Below, in pieces: positions 3,370 through 28,770 of a DNA stretch of 33,218 nt (positions are counted from its first letter, which is position 1; each line of letters begins with the position of its first letter). This DNA is from Methanomassiliicoccales archaeon (lineage in GTDB: Archaea; Thermoplasmatota; Thermoplasmata; Methanomassiliicoccales; UBA472): NCBI GenBank assembly GCA_026394375.1, contig JAPKYJ010000015.1, forward strand, positions 79,265-112,482, in the 5' to 3' direction. The translations under genes were made by a program, and so were the position numbers. The notes under the pieces are model-generated. The model did no database searches and was not told where the DNA came from. It saw only the letters and a program-made list of their open reading frames with translations.

Positions 3370-4218
3370 CTAGATCGCCTTGGCCACTTCTTTTGCCACT
3401 GAGATGGCCGAGACCTCGTTCTCCAACGTGTTCGTGCACACCACTCTGTCGCAGGCATTGCGCAGCTTGTCCAGGGCGCCAGAGACGAAGAGCCCGTGAG
3501 TGCAGGCCGCGGTCACTCTCTTGGCGCCCAATCTCTTCAGCTCGTTGCTGGCCGCGATGATCGTGCCTCCGGTGGAGATGATGTCGTCCACGATGAGCAC
3601 GTCCTTGCCTCGGGCATCGATCTGGCTGGGCGAGATGCGCACCTCCGTGCCGCTCAACCTGGTCTTGGTCAGATGATCGTGATCGCATCCAAGGACGTTG
3701 GCAACCTCTCTCGCTCTCTCCTCAGCTCCCTCGTCGGGCGCAAGCACCAAATCGATCTCATGGTTCAGAAAGAACTCGCCTATGGCCGGAGCGGCAGAGA
3801 TGTTCTTGGCCCCGGCCCGGTCGAACCATTGGAGTATCTCTGGCTTGTGCAGATCGATGCTGAAAAGCCTGTCGGCCTCGGTCGCAAGGGCCTCTACCAT
3901 CACTTTGGCGCTGAGCGCTTCACCGGGATTGAAGCGCCTGTCCTGCCGGGCATAGCCGAAATACGGGACGACTGTGGTGATCTTGTCTGCGCCCAGGCCT
4001 CGGACCGCATCCTGCAACAGCAGAAGCTCGATGAGGTGGCTGTCCGGATAGGAGTTCTGGACGATGACCACCTCGCCGCTAAGGCTTTCGCGTTCGATGC
4101 GCACATAGGCCTCGCCATCCGGGAATCGCTTCACCGAGGCCTCTACGATCTCCGCCCCAGTCTGCTGGGCCAAATCCCGAGCGAGCGATTTCGAGGCGGA
4201 GCCGCAGAGAACGATCAT
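3370..4218 (-). CDS. prs: Ribose-phosphate pyrophosphokinase (PRPP synthetase)
   Basis: The enzyme makes 5-phosphoribosyl-1-pyrophosphate from ribose 5-phosphate and ATP, feeding nucleotide, histidine and tryptophan synthesis. The 282-residue protein has the PRPP synthetase landmarks: KRFPDGE near the start, VVPYFGYARQDRRF in the ATP-binding flexible-loop region, FSIDLHKPEILQWF, and the PRPP-binding loop DVLIVDDIISTGGT. The length suits the short archaeal forms. I use the ATG at 4218 (MIVLCGSAS). Eighteen more in-frame residues upstream do not look conserved and overlap the promoter. GTATTAAG near 4244-4251 is a plausible TATA box for a leaderless message. Divergent from herA. Confidence 0.96.
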   Translation of the reverse strand: MIVLCGSASKSLARDLAQQTGAEIVEASVKRFPDGEAYVRIERESLSGEVVIVQNSYPDSHLIELLLLQDAVRGLGADKITTVVPYFGYARQDRRFNPGEALSAKVMVEALATEADRLFSIDLHKPEILQWFDRAGAKNISAAPAIGEFFLNHEIDLVLAPDEGAEERAREVANVLGCDHDHLTKTRLSGTEVRISPSQIDARGKDVLIVDDIISTGGTIIAASNELKRLGAKRVTAACTHGLFVSGALDKLRNACDRVVCTNTLENEVSAISVAKEVAKAI

Positions 4219-4242
4219 CTCCGTCGGAATCGGTCTGGTGCA

Positions 4243-4290
4243 CTTAATACATTTGGTGGCGCTGGATACCAAAGATATTTATCATATTCG
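4243..4290. promoter_or_regulatory. Divergent promoters for prs and herA
   Basis: The interval between the two divergent starts (4218 and 4310) carries GTATTAAG on the minus strand, about 28 bases before prs. It also carries GATATTTATCATATT on the plus strand (about 4274-4288), about 25-31 bases before the herA ATG. Both spacings fit archaeal TATA-to-start distances and leaderless or nearly leaderless mRNAs. Confidence 0.5.
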
Positions 4291-4309
4291 CTGGATATCT
4301 CTGCTCGGG

Positions 4310-5875
4310 ATGGGAATGCAGACCGATTCTACCGTGGAGGCTCCAGTCAGCACGAGCGATCAGAAGGAGCACCACTCCGAGGCCCCGCCCGCTCCGAAGC
4401 ACCCTGCCAAAGACGGATTGAACGCCGTGGGCATCATTTTTGGGACCGTTGGCACTGCGGAATTCCACTTCCGCGTCTTCGGCGACATCGAGACCATGGA
4501 ATACGTGCAGGTGGAGCACCAGCACGAGGGCTGGGTGCTTGGTCGCGTCACGGCCATGGAGCGCAAGACCGATCTCTCCCTGGAAAGGGCCAAGAAGCTC
4601 CAGGACGGAGAAGAGATACTGATCGACGAGATAGTCATCGCCAAGGTGGACGTGGTTGGCTTCCGGGATGACCGGGGTTTGCTGCAAGTGCCCCGCACTC
4701 CTTTCCGTGCTGGGGACCACGTCTACAAGGCGACGGGCAACCTGATTAAGGACGTCATCGGACTGCGCGAGAACACCGACACTGGTGCGTACCTGGGGCT
4801 GCTCTTCGGCCACGACATCCGAGTGGAGGTGGACATCAACGCCATGGTGCAGAAGCACGTCTCCATCCTCGCCAAGACCGGCGGAGGCAAGAGCTTTCTG
4901 TGCGGCGACCTCATCGAGGAGCTGATGAAGCACGAGGTCACCACCATGGTCTTCGATCCTCACGGAGAATATGGAGCGATGCGCGAGAAAGGCACTTTGG
5001 CCAAGAGCCAGCGCAATTTCGGGGTGTCCACGCGCGGCTATTCGGACCAGATCATGGAGTTCGCCACCGACACCACCATAAATCCCAAGGCCAAACCCCT
5101 CAAGTTCACCCTCTCGAATCTCGATGCTCGAGACGTGCTGTCGCTCACCAGCATCAAGAACGGCAAGGCCTACTTGACCTCCCTGAGGAAGGCCATCGAG
5201 TCCGTCAAGGCGGCCAAGAAGGAGTACTCGCTCAAGGACCTGATCAACGTTCTGGAGGCGGACGAGGAAGGGGAGAACGCCACCCTCATCAATGAGCTGG
5301 AGTACCTCAACGAGGTCAACCTCTTCGCTTCGCAAGGTACGAAGATCGACGACCTCATCGTCAAGGGCAAGACGACCATCATCAACTTCAAGGGCACCCC
5401 GCCTGACATCCAGGAGATAATCGTCAATCGAATCGCTTCGGCCTGTTTCGAGCTGCGCAAGCTGGGTAAGACCCCACCTATGATGATGGTGGTGGAGGAG
5501 GCGCACAACTACTGTCCGCAGCAAGGGGTGGTAGCATCCTCCAAGATATTCCGCACCATCGCCTCCGAGGGACGCAAGTTCGGCCTCGGACTGACGATCA
5601 TATCGCAGCGCGCGGCCAAGATTGACAAGAACGTGCTCTCGCAGTGCAACACCCAGATAATCCTCAAGGTCACCAACCCCAATGACCTGAAGGCCATCTC
5701 CGCCTCTCTGGAAGGCATTTCCGCCGGCATGGAGGACGAGATCCAGCGCCTGCCCATCGGCGTGGCCCTCATCATGGGCGCGAACATCCAGATGCCGCTG
5801 TTCGTGGAAGTGCGTCCGCGGGAGAGCAAGCACGGCGGCGAGAGCGTGGAGGTCGTGCCCTCCAGAAGGGTATGA
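4310..5875 (+). CDS. herA: HerA-family bipolar DNA helicase/ATPase
   Basis: HerA is a hexameric DNA-translocating ATPase that works with the NurA nuclease and Mre11-Rad50 in end resection during recombinational repair. The protein (about 521 residues) has an N-terminal HAS-barrel-like region (VGIIFGTVGTAEFHFRVFG), Walker A AKTGGGKS near residues 187-194, DPHGEY after it, Walker B MMMVVEEAHN near residue 390, and TIASEGRKFGLGLTIISQR with the sensor and arginine-finger region. The ATG at 4310 or 4316 fits the TATA position. A reading from 4238 would cover the promoter. NurA and Mre11-Rad50 are not in this window. The next gene starts one base after the stop, so the two are probably co-transcribed. 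Confidence 0.93.
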   Translation: MGMQTDSTVEAPVSTSDQKEHHSEAPPAPKHPAKDGLNAVGIIFGTVGTAEFHFRVFGDIETMEYVQVEHQHEGWVLGRVTAMERKTDLSLERAKKLQDGEEILIDEIVIAKVDVVGFRDDRGLLQVPRTPFRAGDHVYKATGNLIKDVIGLRENTDTGAYLGLLFGHDIRVEVDINAMVQKHVSILAKTGGGKSFLCGDLIEELMKHEVTTMVFDPHGEYGAMREKGTLAKSQRNFGVSTRGYSDQIMEFATDTTINPKAKPLKFTLSNLDARDVLSLTSIKNGKAYLTSLRKAIESVKAAKKEYSLKDLINVLEADEEGENATLINELEYLNEVNLFASQGTKIDDLIVKGKTTIINFKGTPPDIQEIIVNRIASACFELRKLGKTPPMMMVVEEAHNYCPQQGVVASSKIFRTIASEGRKFGLGLTIISQRAAKIDKNVLSQCNTQIILKVTNPNDLKAISASLEGISAGMEDEIQRLPIGVALIMGANIQMPLFVEVRPRESKHGGESVEVVPSRRV

Positions 5876-15364: not shown

Positions 15365-15441
15365 GGGCCCGTAGCTCAGCTAGGTGGAGCAATCGGCTCT
15401 TAACCGATGGGTCGTGGGTTCGAATCCCACCGGGCCCGCCA
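15365..15441 (+). tRNA. tRNA-Lys(CTT), intact, with encoded CCA
   Basis: A complete cloverleaf. The acceptor arms GGGCCCG and CGGGCCC pair perfectly. The anticodon stem is ATCGG/CCGAT with loop CTCTTAA, giving anticodon CTT for lysine. The T arm is GTGGG TTCGAAT CCCAC, with discriminator G and genomic CCA. Its 3' end is the target of the integrated island: the last 15 bases plus CCA are repeated at the right end of the island, and the gene stays functional. Confidence 0.96.
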
Positions 15442-15443
15442 CT
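15426..15443 (+). repeat. Left attachment site (attL) in the tRNA-Lys 3' end
   Basis: CCCACCGGGCCCGCCACT, 18 bases, identical to 28753-28770. It covers the 3' T stem, acceptor strand and CCA of tRNA-Lys plus two bases, which is the usual target of tRNA-directed tyrosine recombinases. The base before each copy differs (T on the left, A on the right), so the identity block is sharply bounded. Confidence 0.85.
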
Positions 15444-18143: not shown

Positions 18144-18301
18144 AGAATCACATTGCCCAGGTGGATAATGAATCCTCTATTCCTCTCAGCTGTCTTCCAG
18201 TGGATTCTCAAAATTGCGTTTGGGGTCAACCTGCTTGGCTAATATTTATCGAGGATGTCAGCCATTGAGCTAATTGCAGACGCTGCTGGATGCCACTTCA
18301 T

Positions 18302-19420
18302 ATGACTGCATACAAGACTCAGCACTACTTGCCGATGTTCTACATTCGTCGCTTCTCCAGCGATGGGACTGGTCTCTTCCTTCTTTGCGTCGATCAGGGA
18401 ACCATCATAAGAAGGAACCTCAGAGCTGTTGGCTCCGAGCACTACTTTTATGCCGATAAGGAGAATGCAAAGGACTTTGAAACGATAATGTCAGCCATTG
18501 AGAAGAGTCATTCAGAGATATTGGACAAGATAGACGAGGTCAAGGGTTTCGACCGACTCGACGAGAACGACTGGCCTGAGCTGTTGCGCTTTGTCCTTCT
18601 GTGCTCAAGAAGAACCAAGGCATCCAAGATGGAAGCTGAGTCCATCATGAATACCATCATGGCTGCTATGAAGCCAGATATAATGATGTCGCTGCGGTCG
18701 CAGGGCGTTCCCATCTCCGACGTACACAGCATCCGTGTGCAACTCAAGCACGCCGACAGCACTGGCATTCTCGTGGCGCTCGGAGAAGGTCCGCTCTTGA
18801 TATCTGACTTGGCGGTGGCGCTCGTGCGCAACGCGACCGATATTCCATTTATCTGTGGGGATTCACCTGTAGTCTTGTACAATCAAGTCATCCCAACGAT
18901 GACCGCACTGCAGTCACCCGGATTAATGATTCTTTTTCCAATCAGCGAAGAAATGTCAATTCTCTTCTTTGACAAGGAGCTGTACCGGCTCAAGATTCAG
19001 GGCAATGGAATCATCCGCATCGACAAGACAAGCGACGTTGACGAATTGAACAGGCTCCAGATTGTAAATTGCCTTGACTACATCATGTTCTCAAAGGCGT
19101 CAATGACGGCCTACTTGAAGAATCTCTCAAGCAGGCAATTGCGATCATCCATCGAGCAACCACGCACTGAATGCATCATGAGAAAGGAGGAGAATGGCGC
19201 TCAGACGTACCTCAAGACGACTGGCAGACATAGTCAATTCAGGGCGCACTTGTCATTCGTCCGCGTCGACGTTGGCCATGCTAGGCTTCTGCGCTTACAA
19301 GCCGCGGATCTTGCCTTAAGGCCACTCAGTCGTGAAGTCCTCGTAAGGAGTCCTGAGATATCTCGTGCTGTTAGGGAGTCAGAAGAGAAATTCATTGCTT
19401 CGCCATGTTCACGAGAATAG
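18302..19420 (+). CDS. DUF4238 domain protein
   Basis: The N-terminus MTAYKTQHYLPMFYIRRFSSDG, then VGSEHYFYADKENAKDFE, has the QHY(L/V)P-x-FY-L/I-R-x-F pattern of DUF4238. A later segment FICGDSPVV with ILFPISEEMSILFF also fits that family. DUF4238 proteins are common in prophages and islands and their role is unknown. I use the ATG at 18302; one at 18290 adds MPLH. TAATATTTATC at about 18240-18250 is the likely TATA box. The last 70 residues are less conserved and richer in arginine. Confidence 0.75.
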   Translation: MTAYKTQHYLPMFYIRRFSSDGTGLFLLCVDQGTIIRRNLRAVGSEHYFYADKENAKDFETIMSAIEKSHSEILDKIDEVKGFDRLDENDWPELLRFVLLCSRRTKASKMEAESIMNTIMAAMKPDIMMSLRSQGVPISDVHSIRVQLKHADSTGILVALGEGPLLISDLAVALVRNATDIPFICGDSPVVLYNQVIPTMTALQSPGLMILFPISEEMSILFFDKELYRLKIQGNGIIRIDKTSDVDELNRLQIVNCLDYIMFSKASMTAYLKNLSSRQLRSSIEQPRTECIMRKEENGAQTYLKTTGRHSQFRAHLSFVRVDVGHARLLRLQAADLALRPLSREVLVRSPEISRAVRESEEKFIASPCSRE

Positions 19421-19708: not shown

Positions 19709-20605
19709 CTAGCTTCTCCACAAGCCATACGCTTTGGATTCCTCAATCTCAAGTATGGTCATGCTGAGCAACATCAAGACGAGGGCTGGATCGCGGAACT
19801 CATCATGGTTGAAAGGATGCCCGTACCATTCTCTCTTTTCGACCCAGAAATGGTGGAGGCGATGCCTGTACTTGACAATGAAATCGACCAAGCCGTCGAC
19901 GTCTATGTTGAGCCTCAACGAAACGAAGAGCGGTGCGATTCTCGATTCGAAGTCGGGGTTCCCCCTAATCACTTTCAGAACGGAGTCTGAGCATAGCCGC
20001 AAATCGTTCGACGCCTTCATCGCCCCCTCCACGTCTTTGGTCTTCCCTTCACCGAAGAGGCCTTCCAGAACGTAGTAAAAATCCTGGAAGGCGTTGATGT
20101 ATCTCCGTGCGAGGAACTCGTTCCTTCCCTCTCTGAAGAAGGCGAGCGGGATTTCGATTCTCCATATTCTTGTTAGGTCCCCGTCAATGAATGACCTCCG
20201 GACTCTACGCAGCGGTTCTTCCGGTTCTCTCTTGGTGAACTTGACATTGTTTACGGTGAGCTTCCGTTTCTCCTCCTCGTTGTCTGGGAGCCACTCCTGG
20301 GTTATGTCATCATAGTGGACTCGCTGGACTCCATTTAATGTCAGCGCAGATTCGACCGTATGAAAGAGATTGAGAATCCGCGCATAGCGCTCGGGGTCCC
20401 CACCAATATCCAGACGGCTATGGTCCCCGTTGATTTCTAACTTGGGCGTTTCAGCGGGATCTGTCATCTCATATTCGATGCTCAGTCTAGTGAACACGCC
20501 CCTGTCGTCTCCTCCGAGGGTTATCAGGAATTCCTCAACTTTCTTGAATGCCATCGGGCCAACATAAGTCCTCGAAGTGACCCCACAGGAATATTTCACT
20601 CGCAT
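19709..20605 (-). CDS. Uncharacterised protein with RHxxxH motif
   Basis: A 298-residue protein. The N-terminal half is beta-rich (LSIEYEMTD, LEINGDHSRLDIGGD). The second half is helical with ARRYINAFQDFYYVLEGLFGEGKTKDVE and VDFIVKYRHRLHHFWVEKREWYGHP. The R247-x4-H252 motif RHRLHH resembles the HEPN signature, and the preceding AFxDFYxxLEGL helix fits a HEPN-like bundle. This is weaker than for the gene at 21935 but similar in kind. No family recognised. Transcribed alone toward the gene-free spacer. Confidence 0.45.
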   Translation of the reverse strand: MRVKYSCGVTSRTYVGPMAFKKVEEFLITLGGDDRGVFTRLSIEYEMTDPAETPKLEINGDHSRLDIGGDPERYARILNLFHTVESALTLNGVQRVHYDDITQEWLPDNEEEKRKLTVNNVKFTKREPEEPLRRVRRSFIDGDLTRIWRIEIPLAFFREGRNEFLARRYINAFQDFYYVLEGLFGEGKTKDVEGAMKASNDLRLCSDSVLKVIRGNPDFESRIAPLFVSLRLNIDVDGLVDFIVKYRHRLHHFWVEKREWYGHPFNHDEFRDPALVLMLLSMTILEIEESKAYGLWRS

Positions 20606-21934: not shown

Positions 21935-22567
21935 CTAGAATCCTTCGTCTAGCCATGTGCAGAAGACCTCTATCACCCCAAGGAGGTCGGGCGCGGCCGC
22001 TACAATGCCAAGATTCAGGTCATAATCCCACGGCTCTAGAGTGCAATCTGGATATCTCGTGCTTTGGTCATGCGTCCTCGCGATGAGCCCGAGCAGCGTT
22101 AGGAAGCCGTACATGGTCATCCGGTTCGTGAAGTCCTCAGGCTCGATCTCAGCCATTATCCCTCCGGGCAAGTCTTCGACCTTGATCTCTCCATAATTGG
22201 AGATTAGCTGTTCGAAGTCGTCTTTAGCTAACAGGGCGCACTTGTGCTTGATTTCGTTCAGTCTTCTGATGTGTTCACCAAGCCTGGTGACATCCGCCTC
22301 ACGGCCGTCGATCACTTCTTTCTGGGTCTTTTCGAGAGAGTGCTTGAGGATGGCAAGGAAGTCGTGGCTCTTCATATCCGAGAGGGTGAGACCCATGCGC
22401 TCTCCTAGCAACAGATATGCCTTTATTGCCTTCTCAGCTGCCTGGCAAAGGTGATAGGTCCCGGCTGCATGCAGTCCCGCCCCATGCAGCAATCTCGACG
22501 CCTTGGCATCGAGCCTAACGCACTTGATGAGTTCAGCTGCATATGTTACTTCGGCGTCCGCGGTCAT
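21935..22567 (-). CDS. HEPN domain protein
   Basis: About 210 residues. AGTYHLCQAAEKAIKAYLLLGERMG is a textbook HEPN helix (A-x-x-QAAEKA-x-KA), followed by KSHDFLAILKHSLEK and RRLNEIKHKC with an R-x5-H motif (about R102 to H108). HEPN proteins of mobile elements are often RNases, paired with MNT-type nucleotidyltransferases. No such partner is adjacent, although a nucleotidyltransferase lies at 26275. The ATG at 22567 follows TATATGC (about 22589-22600) at the TATA distance. A frame opening at 22693 would cross the promoter and the recombinase scar. Confidence 0.72.
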   Translation of the reverse strand: MTADAEVTYAAELIKCVRLDAKASRLLHGAGLHAAGTYHLCQAAEKAIKAYLLLGERMGLTLSDMKSHDFLAILKHSLEKTQKEVIDGREADVTRLGEHIRRLNEIKHKCALLAKDDFEQLISNYGEIKVEDLPGGIMAEIEPEDFTNRMTMYGFLTLLGLIARTHDQSTRYPDCTLEPWDYDLNLGIVAAAPDLLGVIEVFCTWLDEGF

Positions 22568-22685
22568 CGTCTTCAAAGTCAGCCAATGCATATAAGCAAT
22601 TTGCGCTGGCCAGTCCCCAGTGCACCGCCCATTCCCGTCCTTCCAGAAAACGGCTCGAATTGCGATATGGTGCCTTGCTTGAGCT

Positions 22686-22832
22686 TCAGACACCGAACCT
22701 CGTCGCGTCCCGATACGTCCTCGAGCGCTGCCGAATGTTCAGGTGGAGGTATATCTGCGTCGTTTCGATGTCCTCGTGGCCTAGGTCTTTCCGGACGGCC
22801 TCGAGCTTGATTCCTTTGTCTGACTGCCATTG
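22686..22832 (-). pseudogene. Tyrosine recombinase, C-terminal remnant
   Basis: The minus-strand frame reads GIKLEAVRKDLGHEDIETTQIYLHL, ending RDATRFGV and stop. LGHEDIETTQIYLH is the conserved C-terminal box with the second histidine region and the catalytic tyrosine of tyrosine recombinases. Upstream the frame hits a stop at about 22845 and no further homology is seen, so only the last 49 residues survive. It is of a different subfamily from the remnant at 15442 and from the gene at 25378. Confidence 0.8.
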
Positions 22833-23778: not shown

Positions 23779-25008
23779 TTAGAAATCCTCCGATGTCTTT
23801 TGTCTACTGATTGCATTTAGAATCGTTTGGAGCTCCTTCGTCGCTGCTTTCTTGTCAGAGACGTGATCAAGGTACTTTCCCTTGTCTATAAGTTTGGATG
23901 CCTGGGACATCTCCTTATGTGCGGCGTGAAGACGATGTATCTTTAAATCCTGTTGAAGTGCCTTGAGGTCCTCATTCGTGTTCGAACGGTTATAAATATC
24001 AATAGGCGACTTGATTCGACTGCATGTGGGGCATTGGCATCGAAGCGTGTGCGACTCCATGAGCTTCTTGAGACCTTCGCATGTATATGCTCCATAGGTA
24101 TCGGTCGTGTAGTATCTTTTCTTGGGAATCTTACCTTGAATCTTCTGCGGAGTCTCCGGGTCCGCATCGAATCCCCTTCGCATTCCTCCGAATGAGTCGA
24201 ACCCGTATACCGAAACCAGCAGATCGTAGGTGGGTTGAACGGACGAAGCGTGAGTGCCATGCCAGTTGAAGTGGGGGACGTTCGTGCCGTGGATGAGAAG
24301 ACTATCCCAGTTAGGTACGCTATCGATAATCCCCCTCATCCTTGATTGCTTGATTTTGGCACCGCCGCAATCGAAAGTGAGCGATTCGAATCCGTTCTCA
24401 AGATAGGTCTTTGTGATCTTCTTGGCGGTTTCTTCGCTTATGGCATAAGGGACCATTCCAGAGATGGCATATTCCTCTAGGAAGTCTCCCTTCCTGGTCG
24501 AATAGACTGAGGACCCTATCTTAGCCCATTGTAACTCATGGGCATCATCCATGATCATCGGGGGAATGAGGATATCGATGCCCTCGATGTCGAATAGGTC
24601 GAACACCTTTTGCACCATCTTCTCCGTTGGGGCCGGGAACGGCCTGAAATCCATTGGGTCTTCGTTGGGACTTCGTTCATTGACAAAGTAAGGGAATGCA
24701 ATGTTGATGCCGGAGTCGCCAATGTCTGATAGTGTGTTTTGAAGGGCGTTCTTGATATTGTGGTGCTCAGAGTCACTCGTGACGATTGCCCTTAACCGCT
24801 TTGGGTTAATCTTCAACCCAATTTCATTGATAATCGTCCTCTCAACCTGTTTCTTAGCGATGTCAGTTTCAATCTGGGATTCAGTGCTAATGTTCGCGGC
24901 CTTCAGCGGAAGGTCCACCCTCTTTCTGTTGATCGTTACCCTGGTGTGCTTGGCCCTTCTATCGTCGCGGTCCTTTCTTGCATCAATTCCTATTCTTGCT
25001 CTTGACAT
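23779..25008 (-). CDS. tRNA-guanine transglycosylase-like protein; DpdA-like DNA-modification candidate
   Basis: A 409-residue protein (from the ATG at 25008). It has the order of parts of the TGT/DpdA barrel. First come alternating strands and helices (GINIAFPYFV, GIDILIPPMIM, then ESLTFDCGGAKIK). Then YDLLVSVYGFDSFGGMRRGF is the counterpart of the TGT segment with FDC and PTR. Finally there is a zinc site CQCPTC with a histidine near 28 residues later (HRLHAAH). Family TGT enzymes swap guanine for a 7-deazaguanine in tRNA; DpdA relatives do so in DNA of phages and islands. The catalytic aspartates are not obvious: the FDC-like D may be F-G here. In an island with a ribbon-helix-helix partner, a DNA role is my inference. 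A second, divergent TGT function in RNA remains possible. Confidence 0.55.
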   Translation of the reverse strand: MSRARIGIDARKDRDDRRAKHTRVTINRKRVDLPLKAANISTESQIETDIAKKQVERTIINEIGLKINPKRLRAIVTSDSEHHNIKNALQNTLSDIGDSGINIAFPYFVNERSPNEDPMDFRPFPAPTEKMVQKVFDLFDIEGIDILIPPMIMDDAHELQWAKIGSSVYSTRKGDFLEEYAISGMVPYAISEETAKKITKTYLENGFESLTFDCGGAKIKQSRMRGIIDSVPNWDSLLIHGTNVPHFNWHGTHASSVQPTYDLLVSVYGFDSFGGMRRGFDADPETPQKIQGKIPKKRYYTTDTYGAYTCEGLKKLMESHTLRCQCPTCSRIKSPIDIYNRSNTNEDLKALQQDLKIHRLHAAHKEMSQASKLIDKGKYLDHVSDKKAATKELQTILNAISRQKTSEDF

Positions 25009-25159
25009 ACCTCTCACCGCTCCAATTTTTCTGGATGAACTCGTCCAATGCCTCTTTTATGAAATCGCTCTGCGTTTTCCACAAGCCAGTCTCCGCTACG
25101 ATCGTCTCTATCTCAGCCTTCATGGCCTCAGAGATTCGGACGGCTACGAAAGGGCACAT
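24983..25159 (-). CDS. Ribbon-helix-helix regulator, first gene of the TGT-like operon
   Basis: A 58-residue protein: MCPFVAVRISEAMKAEIETI then TGLWKTQSDFIKEALDEFI. Strand plus two helices with the S-x-F-I-x-E-A-L second helix typical of CopG-type repressors. TATA AACATAAATA at 25181-25190 lies 22-31 bases before the ATG, so it is leaderless. Its 3' end overlaps the TGT-like gene by 26 bases, which carries its own GGTGAGAGG. It probably binds the TGTTATACA repeats just upstream and so controls its own operon. Confidence 0.75.
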   Translation of the reverse strand: MCPFVAVRISEAMKAEIETIVAETGLWKTQSDFIKEALDEFIQKNWSGERYVKSKNRN

Positions 25160-25180
25160 AAATAGGGATTGGTTACACCC

Positions 25181-25254
25181 TATTTATGTTTTACAGTCTG
25201 TTATACAAATTGTTATACAGGAAGGATTATGGATGTATAACATTTCGTTATACA
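25181..25254 (-). promoter_or_regulatory. Promoter and TGTTATACA operator cluster of the RHH/TGT-like operon
   Basis: The TATA box AACATAAATA (minus strand, 25181-25190) is followed upstream by four copies of a 9-mer: TGTTATACA at 25199-25207 and 25211-25219, the inverse TGTATAACA at 25234-25242, and CGTTATACA (one mismatch) at 25246-25254. Centre spacing of the first pair is 12 bases, about one helical turn. This is the pattern of cooperative ribbon-helix-helix binding. Confidence 0.65.
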
Positions 25255-25377: not shown

Positions 25378-25932
25378 TTACATGAACGCCCTCTCGAGTT
25401 CCTCTTCGGCCAAGCCGCCAGCCCTCTGGATGTAGTACTGCGCGATCTTCAGCTGGCCCCAGCCGAAGAGGTCGCAGAGGACCCGGGGGTTCTTGACCTT
25501 GTACGCCAGCCTCGTGGCCGCCGTCACCCGGAGCGAATGCGGATAGGTCCGGGCCTCAAGCCCGGACCTCTCGGCTATACGCTGCACGATCCGGTAGACG
25601 GTGATTCGGTGTATTCCGAGCCGCTCGTAGGCGGTAAAGTAGGCCCTGACCGCGTCCCACGCCCTCCGAGACATCTTGAGCGCGGGGATGGTCCTCGCCC
25701 CCCACCTGGTCTTCGGGGTCCAGCCGTCCCTGTCGCTCGACGGGATGATGATGTGCCCCTTCTGGAAGTTGAGCCAGGACCTCTGCAGGTGCGCAATCTC
25801 CCCCTCCCTCATGCCCAGGTCGCCGGCGAGCAGCAGGATCAGGAGCTCTTCCGGGCGGTCGGGGTCCGCGGCCTGCAGCAGCTGCTCGTATTGCTCTTCA
25901 TCGAGAGCGTCGTCGCGGGATCCCATGATCAT
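25378..25932 (-). CDS. Tyrosine recombinase (integrase), intact catalytic domain
   Basis: A 184-residue protein with the complete tyrosine recombinase catalytic set: R in GDLGMREGEIAHLQRSW (near residue 42), H-x-x-R in YPHSLRVTAATRLAYKV, and the nucleophile in IAQYYIQRAGG. It lacks the usual N-terminal core-binding domain, so it is a short form or relies on a partner. It is GC-rich unlike its AT-rich neighbours, suggesting a separate origin. The likely start is ATG 25932 or 25926, with TATA CTTATAAG at 25952-25959. It is the only complete recombinase, so probably responsible for the latest integration event, though it is 2.8 kb from the right att. Confidence 0.9.
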   Translation of the reverse strand: MIMGSRDDALDEEQYEQLLQAADPDRPEELLILLLAGDLGMREGEIAHLQRSWLNFQKGHIIIPSSDRDGWTPKTRWGARTIPALKMSRRAWDAVRAYFTAYERLGIHRITVYRIVQRIAERSGLEARTYPHSLRVTAATRLAYKVKNPRVLCDLFGWGQLKIAQYYIQRAGGLAEEELERAFM

Positions 25933-26274: not shown

Positions 26275-27108
26275 CTAGGGTTCGTTCAGATTTACTTTGT
26301 TGGGTTTTACTGTCTTATCGATTACTATAATTCCCGCTTTCTCGAGATTCGATAGATATTGTCTAACTTGAGCGGGTTTCATTTTCAAACCATTGCTGAT
26401 CTTTGGCACTGTATTCAGGCCCCCTTTGATCTGTTCTAGAACTAACTTACTACCAAGTTTAACCTCAGCTATCTTACTCAGCTCCCTTTTCCAAGGAATA
26501 GAAATGCCATATTTCTTCTCCATCTCCTCTATCTTTATCAAAAGAAATACTTCCCAGATTCTACCTCCTATTAAATCATCATGTTGACTCTGGAATCGAC
26601 ATTCCGTCAAGAGTGTCTCTTTATCGATTCCCTTTCGATAAAGTACAATCATATCGTCAAGATCTCTATTGCGCTCGGTTACACTTTTCAAAAGAAAGAT
26701 GTCTTCTCTTGAGCATAGACTGAGAGAAATTTGGCTAAGGTCGCTGTAAAACTCTGATCGTTTTTTCATGCCCTGACTGAAAATTAGTTTGTCGCATATT
26801 GTTCCAACAAAAATGTCAATTCTCATGCCTCTTGATATAGTCAATATTCTTGCATCTACTAGACTCTTGCATTCAACAGGAGGTCGAATACTCACCTCAA
26901 AACCAAGCCTTGTTAATGCTTTGTTCAATTCTTCTGCGTGTTCTTCAGATTCCAGAATTAGATCAACATCTTTGGTGGCATCCTTCTCCCCCCTGATGGC
27001 CATCGCACCCCCACCGACCAAATATACCGATATGTTCTTGGAGCATATCTTACCAGCTTCAACTAATACCGATAAAACCTCTTCCTTGTTGAATTGGGTA
27101 GTCTCCAC
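26275..27108 (-). CDS. Nucleotidyltransferase-fold protein, AbiEii-like toxin candidate
   Basis: A 277-residue protein. VYLVGGGAMAIRGEKDATKDVDLIL (about residues 28-52) has the GG and DxD of the polymerase-beta nucleotidyltransferase fold, with MRIDIFVG as the third acidic strand. The C-terminus carries a winged helix-turn-helix (VPKISNGLKMKPAQVRQYLSNLEKAGIIVI). Such proteins include the AbiEii toxin of type IV toxin-antitoxin and abortive infection systems. The GTG start follows the stop of the preceding regulator with no gap. The regulator-then-nucleotidyltransferase order matches AbiEi/AbiEii. Function inferred. Confidence 0.65.
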   Translation of the reverse strand: METTQFNKEEVLSVLVEAGKICSKNISVYLVGGGAMAIRGEKDATKDVDLILESEEHAEELNKALTRLGFEVSIRPPVECKSLVDARILTISRGMRIDIFVGTICDKLIFSQGMKKRSEFYSDLSQISLSLCSREDIFLLKSVTERNRDLDDMIVLYRKGIDKETLLTECRFQSQHDDLIGGRIWEVFLLIKIEEMEKKYGISIPWKRELSKIAEVKLGSKLVLEQIKGGLNTVPKISNGLKMKPAQVRQYLSNLEKAGIIVIDKTVKPNKVNLNEP

Positions 27109-28041
27109 TTATTGCACCCCATATTGGCGATAAAGGTCATCAATGTCGATTCTACTTGGCAGAAACGGATTGGTAGTTTTCCTGCTAGACACGAAGTCGA
27201 TTATTTCTTTTACAAGCTTATTGATTCCAACAGATCTAGCTTCTCGCAATAAGTACTTGGAGTCGAACCCAGTCTTCTTTAGTAATAACATGGAGTAACT
27301 TATTCCCCGTGTGCTATATGGGTCTATCAGCAGATTGTGAATAGCCACATCTTCGGTTCTTAAGTCTGGATGCCAATACGAATAATAATAATAGTTTGTC
27401 TCAGAAACGAATTGCAGACCATAATTTGCCATTGCAGATATGCATGTTTTCTGGATTCCCGTAGAATCATCTAGTGAGGGGGTTGAAAAAATGCATTCTA
27501 AACCACCACTCCAAAGCAGAATCCCAAATTTTGTTTTCATTTCCACAATCTTAATGTTTACACCTTTTGAGAAATCCTGCAAGAACTGAGCCATAAAAAC
27601 GTCAGTGGATGAAATCATAATCTTGGATTCTTTCTGAGTCACCACCCCATAATTCCTTAGGCTCCAAACCAGGACTCTTACCGTATCCTGCTTAAGTTTG
27701 GTCTCTTTTGCTATTCGTTTAACGCTTTTGGGAAAATGCGATATTGCTAGGAGAACGAGAAGTTTTGACCCTATGATTGCATCGAGGGGGTGCTCATTCG
27801 ATAGAACATATCTCTTTAATGCTGCCGCATGGAGATCTGTACTCGGTAGGAATTGAATACCCCGGTCGCCATGGCTCGTTACTACTTTTTTCTTATTAAG
27901 CGCTTCAGCTATCCGGTAAACGGTTTTGTTCGATGAGCTTGTGGATTTTACAATATCATTCACTGACATGTTGCCTAGGCAAATCGCTCGAAATGCCTCA
28001 AGCTGATTCTTAGTGTAAGTAAAGGTGAAGTTAAACATCAT
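27109..28041 (-). CDS. Winged-helix regulator, AbiEi-like antitoxin candidate
   Basis: A 310-residue protein with two helix-turn-helix units: TKNQLEAFRAICLGNMSVNDIVKSTSSSNKTVYRIAEAL near the N-terminus, and FPKSVKRIAKETKLKQDTVRVLVWSL near residue 120, followed by a mixed C-terminal domain. The start is the ATG at 28041 or 28038: TATA TCTATATAAAG at 28061-28071 sits at the leaderless distance. A frame opening at 28113 spans the promoter. It is read into the nucleotidyltransferase gene without a gap. I call the pair AbiE-like by arrangement, not by seen family motifs. Confidence 0.65.
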   Translation of the reverse strand: MMFNFTFTYTKNQLEAFRAICLGNMSVNDIVKSTSSSNKTVYRIAEALNKKKVVTSHGDRGIQFLPSTDLHAAALKRYVLSNEHPLDAIIGSKLLVLLAISHFPKSVKRIAKETKLKQDTVRVLVWSLRNYGVVTQKESKIMISSTDVFMAQFLQDFSKGVNIKIVEMKTKFGILLWSGGLECIFSTPSLDDSTGIQKTCISAMANYGLQFVSETNYYYYSYWHPDLRTEDVAIHNLLIDPYSTRGISYSMLLLKKTGFDSKYLLREARSVGINKLVKEIIDFVSSRKTTNPFLPSRIDIDDLYRQYGVQ

Positions 28042-28060
28042 GTTACCAAATTGACATTTC

Positions 28061-28071
28061 TTTATATAGAT
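28061..28071 (-). promoter_or_regulatory. TATA box of the AbiE-like operon
   Basis: TCTATATAAAG on the minus strand, centred 25 bases before the ATG at 28041. A flanking inverted pair TTGACAA (28225-28231) and TTGTCAA (28247-28253) around ACTTATAATG lies further upstream and may be a second promoter or operator. Confidence 0.6.
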
Positions 28072-28275
28072 TTTGTCATTTTCATAACAGACAATTTTAC
28101 AATTAATACTCAATCATAGGCTATGAAAAAAGCGACATATTATGAACTGGTTATCGATTTTATGAAAACGAATTATCTTTAGATGTTCGATTCATTCGTT
28201 TCTTAATTCCTTATTGTAATGGATTTGACAATTTACTTATAATGATTTGTCAATTTCATTACACTCAATCGAAAC

Positions 28276-28752: not shown

Positions 28753-28770
28753 CCCACCGGGCCCGCCACT
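28753..28770 (+). repeat. Right attachment site (attR)
   Basis: CCCACCGGGCCCGCCACT, the displaced copy of the tRNA-Lys 3' end, identical to 15426-15443. No cloverleaf 5' part precedes it, so it is not a second tRNA gene. GC-rich core genes resume right of it. Confidence 0.85.

Follow-up and report, generated by a model that had tools for sequence, protein, structure and literature searches.

In mammals, the fold of tRNA-guanine transglycosylase (TGT), an enzyme that exchanges a base of transfer RNA, is found also in QTRT2, a non-catalytic subunit that pairs with the catalytic QTRT1. Archaeal TgtA (PF01702, TIGR00432; PDB 1IQ8) is a TIM barrel with a TP motif at strand 1, a GxD motif at strand 8, a C-terminal HN...E...K helix region and a CxCxxC-H zinc site, and it carries in addition the DSG general-acid motif of strand 3, the nucleophile Asp, a VQGG-type base-binding Gln and a PUA domain. 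DpdA (phage 9g type and bacterial dpd clusters; PDB 7UI4) belongs to the same superfamily, stands alone on mobile elements, retains the catalytic motifs and is accompanied by preQ0/dpd genes. Other TGT homologues, with other partners, were reported in BREX-related capture (BRC) systems (PMC12839542). As regards toxin-antitoxin systems, UPF0175 (COG2886) was predicted by Makarova et al. 2009 to be a family of antitoxins to PIN toxins (PMC2701414), and the UPF0175-PIN and RHH-PIN systems of type II are small operons of overlapping genes, in which the ribbon-helix-helix (RHH) gene comes first and operator boxes are located upstream. In the literature that we found, no TGT-fold gene is described in UPF0175-PIN or RHH-PIN systems, and our search for a TGT linked with UPF0175/PIN modules retrieved none.

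The window, i.e. the whole stretch of DNA analysed here (33,218 nt), belongs to contig C15 of an archaeal genome of 1.73 Mb. The initial annotation placed a TGT-like gene of this window in a tRNA-Lys island, and the island is real: the tRNA-Lys(CTT) gene (15365..15441, plus strand) is the integration target, and an exact 18-bp att repeat, made of the last 16 nt of the tRNA and 2 further nt, is present at its 3′ end (15426..15443, plus strand) and at the far end of a 13.3-kb region (28753..28770, plus strand). Between the two copies the GC content is 0.39-0.54, down from about 0.60, and the island encodes its own integrase, a tyrosine recombinase (25378..25932, minus strand; Pfam PF00589 1.5e-18, PHROG 9.5e-26). 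We did not recognise any dpd or preQ0 gene among the scanned island ORFs, and the TGT-like gene does stand alone, as had been claimed; TgtA and QueC of the host are encoded elsewhere in the genome, outside the island. Other genes of the island code for a DUF4238 protein (18290-19420), for a DUF6036 protein that resembles nucleotidyltransferases and has a winged helix at its C terminus (26275-27108) and, adjoining the latter, for a two-HTH regulator of the HVO_2833 type (27109-28113). A HEPN-like gene (21935-22693) and a weakly MauJ-like gene (19709-20605) are possible further conflict genes.

The TGT-like gene (23779..25008, minus strand) encodes 409 aa from its ATG; a GTG 9 nt upstream, at 25017, is an alternative start that would give 412 aa. 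It is preceded on the same strand by a gene for a 58-aa RHH protein (24983..25159), the first of the pair, and the two ORFs, both real, overlap by 26 nt. The assignment to RHH is real, though weak, all the matches being below the Pfam cut-off and that to RHH_1 just under it (E=7.6e-4). Above the RHH gene, where four repeat sites had been annotated, we found five 9-bp boxes of the TGTnnnACA type (25187..25254), arranged in a 12-nt tandem register and in two clusters 35 nt apart; precisely, TGTTATACA is present three times without mismatch and CGTTATACA once, with TGTTTTACA as the fifth box. The whole window contains 8 box matches with at most one mismatch, against 1.7 expected, and none of 100 shuffles reached 8, the pattern having been chosen after inspection of the sequences. 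The boxes are probably the operator of the RHH protein. They lie upstream of both the RHH start and a TATA-like CATAAATA, and therefore, while the RHH gene and its sites stand, the term repressor used in the initial annotation is a guess about the sign of the regulation, repression at the boxes being likely.

The same arrangement was found at one other locus, L037 (genome G202), in which an RHH gene with overlapping ends is in front of the TGT-like gene. The two RHH proteins are homologous (alignment score of 78, against a maximum of 48 in 1000 shuffles), and the two TGT-like proteins form one branch with support 97/92, a grouping that may be partly an artefact because both are on long branches. 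Upstream of the L037 RHH gene there are four boxes (TGTCAGACA, TGTCTGACA, CGTCAGACG and TGTCGGACA), again in a 12-nt tandem register, with a cluster spacing of 36 nt. The two-cluster layout, likewise defined after the sequences had been inspected, was reached by none of 2000 shuffles for the window and for L037 alike. Since the layout is kept in L037 despite different core letters, it points to a functional, autoregulated RHH/TGT-like pair, as predicted from sequence. A small DNA-binding gene that comes first, overlaps a larger partner and is preceded by operator repeats is the layout of type II toxin-antitoxin systems; what differs from the RHH-PIN systems is that, in the window, the TGT-fold gene replaces PIN as the RHH partner.

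None of the profile libraries searched names the TGT-like family or recognises TGT in it at its own threshold. The search of PDB sequences with phmmer and profiles gave chance matches only, a viral fold library gave generic TIM barrels only (best E 2e-4), and PADLOC gave no match for the window protein. Its sequence profile matches, in the zinc region only, were to TIGR00432 (E=0.0026) and to Pfam TGT PF01702 (E=0.043; 13.3 bits, below the 26.3-bit cut-off), and the profile-profile comparison of the family with 7 genuine archaeal TgtA gave E=1.1e-5. A profile search and a structure prediction against TGT had been proposed as a check in the initial annotation, and the TGT TIM-barrel fold was indeed returned. 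The AlphaFold2 model of the window protein, built from 21 sequences, has a pLDDT of 74 and a pTM of 0.78, and its 50 best PDB matches in Foldseek are all TGT (best E=9e-9, probability 1.00). The model of a relative from Candidatus Altarchaeum, L121 (pLDDT 93.1, pTM 0.91), likewise has TGT as all of its 50 best PDB matches (best E=1.2e-7), and its closest folds include chains of the entries for the mouse heterodimeric TGT (QTRT1/QTRT2). As both models match TGT alone among the 50 best PDB entries, the predicted fold is that of TGT, and we consider the window protein to be a TGT homologue by modelled fold and zinc region.

The annotated motifs are all present in TGT order. They are the GFDSFGGMRRG segment (residues 269-279; 24172..24204, minus strand), the CxCxxC remnant of the TGT zinc site (C324, C326 and C329; 24022..24039, minus strand) and a following His, which fits H358 (codon at 23935..23937, minus strand), the probable fourth zinc ligand according to the comparison of KIHRLHAAHKEM with the TgtA HNL..E motif. 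The protein shares with TgtA also the TP and GxD motifs and the C-terminal helix region; the PUA domain is missing. As had been noticed, the catalytic residues are unlike those of ordinary TGT. In the TgtA alignment GFDSFG falls on GVDMMD, so that Gly274 is in the place of the nucleophile Asp (GxDxxD or GxDxFD), which is found at this aligned position in 0/44 family sequences, and the DSG motif is missing. This register was established by sequence alignment and predicted strands, not by superposition; predicted strand 8 (272-275) begins directly after D271, which is consistent with it. In the same inferred register the base-binding Gln is replaced by Pro: P150, present in 44/44 aligned sequences, and P187, present in 80% of them, seem to match the base-contact positions of strands 4 and 5. 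The residues conserved in the family are P34, E62, P150, D213, N243, D262, D271, Y305, E366 and K386. Among them, D213, N243 and D271 are located at the termini of predicted strands 6, 7 and 8 or close to them, hence an altered pocket, instead of simple decay, is plausible. The zinc site is kept in the window protein and in L124 only, and is lost in the other aligned relatives. The L124 protein (3943-5091, minus strand), the second member with a zinc motif, has CNCPVC, and this suggests an ancestral zinc site that most members have lost.

Searching whole genomes with the window protein and with profiles of the family yielded 53 family loci, which fall into three groups of archaea, namely the window's own phylum, the phylum with Methanosaeta and the phylum with Candidatus Altarchaeum. 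We left hits such as L006 and L026-L036 out of the family tallies, as they are TgtA-type proteins that match in the C-terminal zinc region only. The TGT-like proteins are a previously undescribed archaeal family. No close relatives of the window protein were present in the viral and genome contigs scanned, the subfamily scan of viral contigs gave no relatives, and tblastn gave no match in phages and only one weak, short match in plasmids; with other queries, relatives from Haloarcula were found on one plasmid. The window genome itself has a second member (L052, contig C3, 11000-23000), which is part of a complete antitoxin-PIN-TGT module and is convergent with the PIN gene.

In 48 of the 53 loci the TGT-like gene directly adjoins a gene for a winged-helix/UPF0175 antitoxin-like protein of about 190 aa. 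A further locus, L046, was added because its PIN gene continues across a contig break into L153, which bears the antitoxin-like gene; with L127 left out, as it is cut by a contig edge, the neighbour is thus present in 49 of 52 judgeable loci and missing only in the window, L037 and L112. UPF0175 was matched by 21 of 40 antitoxin-like genes and HTH_45 by 9. Their orientation relative to the TGT-like gene is the same strand (29), convergent (12) or divergent (7), and in most loci gene ends overlap or touch. PIN genes were detected in 36 loci by HMM, to which Pfam or visual inspection added about five; DUF3368 was matched by 11 of 27 PIN genes, and the acidic residues of PIN are mostly retained. 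The family is therefore linked, in most loci, to the same antitoxin and toxin families as the UPF0175-PIN systems, from which it differs by the added TGT-fold gene. PIN genes are missing in the window and in L037, so the window arrangement and the usual one may not work alike. A number of the modules are embedded in defence loci, among them restriction and BREX loci, with HsdM/HsdS (L128), HsdS (L039), DNA methylases (L043 and L153), PglZ with BrxL (L055) and DUF499 (L103). The antitoxin-like gene is found also with PIN alone; hence the module needs the TGT-like gene less than the TGT-like gene needs the module, of which it may be an optional accessory.

The role preferred in the initial annotation was that of a DpdA-type enzyme. 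An active enzyme of the TGT or DpdA type, putting 7-deazaguanine into DNA or RNA, would agree with the TGT fold, with the zinc site retained in the window protein, with a host that has QueC and TgtA, and with the proposal that TGT homologues are DNA modifiers in BREX-related capture systems (PMC12839542). Nevertheless, both the nucleophile and the general-acid Asp are missing, while DpdA of phage 9g retains DSG and DSSSW and genuine archaeal TgtA also retains the nucleophile and DSG. The window protein did not match the phage DpdA family phrog_887, for which a DpdA used as positive control gave 2e-98; the gene context is toxin-antitoxin-like and not Dpd-like, and neither dpd nor preQ0 genes were recognised on the island; and the zinc site, lost in nearly all relatives, is therefore not what the family conserves. 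The base-insertion role is thus unsupported, and an active enzyme of this kind is highly improbable. Barely credible is a decaying cargo gene with no present function: the 409-aa frame is open, the operator layout is retained in a distant relative and P34, E62, P150, D213, N243, D271, Y305 and K386 are shared with the family, against the long branch, the lost catalytic residues and the weak similarity to everything that would fit decay.

The TGT-like protein could also be a non-catalytic tRNA-binding partner, dimerising with the host TgtA or with PIN and tuning tRNA modification or cleavage in the manner of QTRT2. This fits the presence of a host TgtA and the QTRT1/QTRT2 chains among the closest folds of L121, and QTRT2 is itself a TGT-fold protein without a catalytic role; it is, however, eukaryotic, has QTRT1 as its partner and has no toxin-antitoxin linkage. 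We regard such a partner as rather unlikely, as the conserved E62, D213, N243, D262, D271, Y305 and K386 suggest a pocket kept in altered form and not left to drift, and as a tight linkage with an antitoxin-like gene is unexpected for a housekeeping partner. An accessory antitoxin or chaperone, restraining PIN or shielding tRNA, would account for the PIN genes that adjoin the TGT-like gene in most loci and, like an add-on, for the modules in which antitoxin-like gene and PIN exist without it; the window copy could then act against a nuclease elsewhere, e.g. that of the HEPN-like gene in the same island. This is a distinctly unlikely explanation, given that a dedicated antitoxin-like gene is already part of the module and that in the window and L037 the immediate partner is an RHH gene, with no PIN.

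A conflict-system component of a new kind is more likely than a DNA-base-modifying enzyme. Our computations show the fold, the operator layout, the disappearance of the catalytic residues of TGT and the association with either antitoxin-like/PIN or RHH genes. The reading that fits the family best is an RNA-binding effector with a remodelled TGT fold, acting in toxin-antitoxin-like or defence modules; its biochemical step is the part that we infer. For the window, we give about an even chance to a TIM-barrel protein that derives from TGT, has a replaced base-exchange site and serves as the effector in a toxin-antitoxin-like pair, which is autoregulated by RHH and carried by an integrative island. 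More tentatively, and with our expectation somewhat on the negative side, the family could represent a novel class of effectors of archaeal toxin-antitoxin or defence systems, with a TGT fold, a rebuilt active site targeting RNA and an exchangeable DNA-binding antitoxin (wHTH/UPF0175 or RHH), usually accompanied by a PIN ribonuclease.

According to this model, the RHH protein (the wHTH protein in the relatives) would bind both its own operator and the TGT-fold effector, so that operon expression stays low and the effector is neutralised. If it were lost or titrated, the TGT-fold protein would use its TGT-derived surface to engage an RNA, probably tRNA, and would then either act on it with the changed active site or present it to a nuclease such as PIN. 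Neutralisation, RNA target and toxicity or a defence role of the TGT-like protein are thus all putative. What emerges is a family scattered among archaea, derived from TGT and tied to genes of toxin-antitoxin and defence systems. Should it act as an effector, a fold of tRNA modification would have become either a weapon in conflicts or the subunit that directs PIN ribonucleases to RNA. The role of the family is testable in genetically tractable methanogens and haloarchaea.

Some individual loci have further peculiarities. In L055 (766-6559) the TGT-like gene comes straight after PglZ and BrxL, the latter with an N-terminal Swt1-like HEPN domain. The BRC systems (PMC12839542) likewise combine a TGT homologue with PglZ in defence loci, yet by description they have DUF6079, DUF4007, HerA, STAND and GNAT, none of which was seen as a partner of the TGT-like gene. 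In L128 the whole set is located between HsdM and HsdS, and in both L128 and L125 a gene of about 160 aa with a CxxCGN zinc-ribbon-like start is in PIN's place, beside the antitoxin-like gene. Finally, in L158, L164 and L166-L168 the antitoxin-like gene is paired with a different kind of PIN-like gene and the TGT-like gene is missing; these appear to be two-gene systems of the same class.
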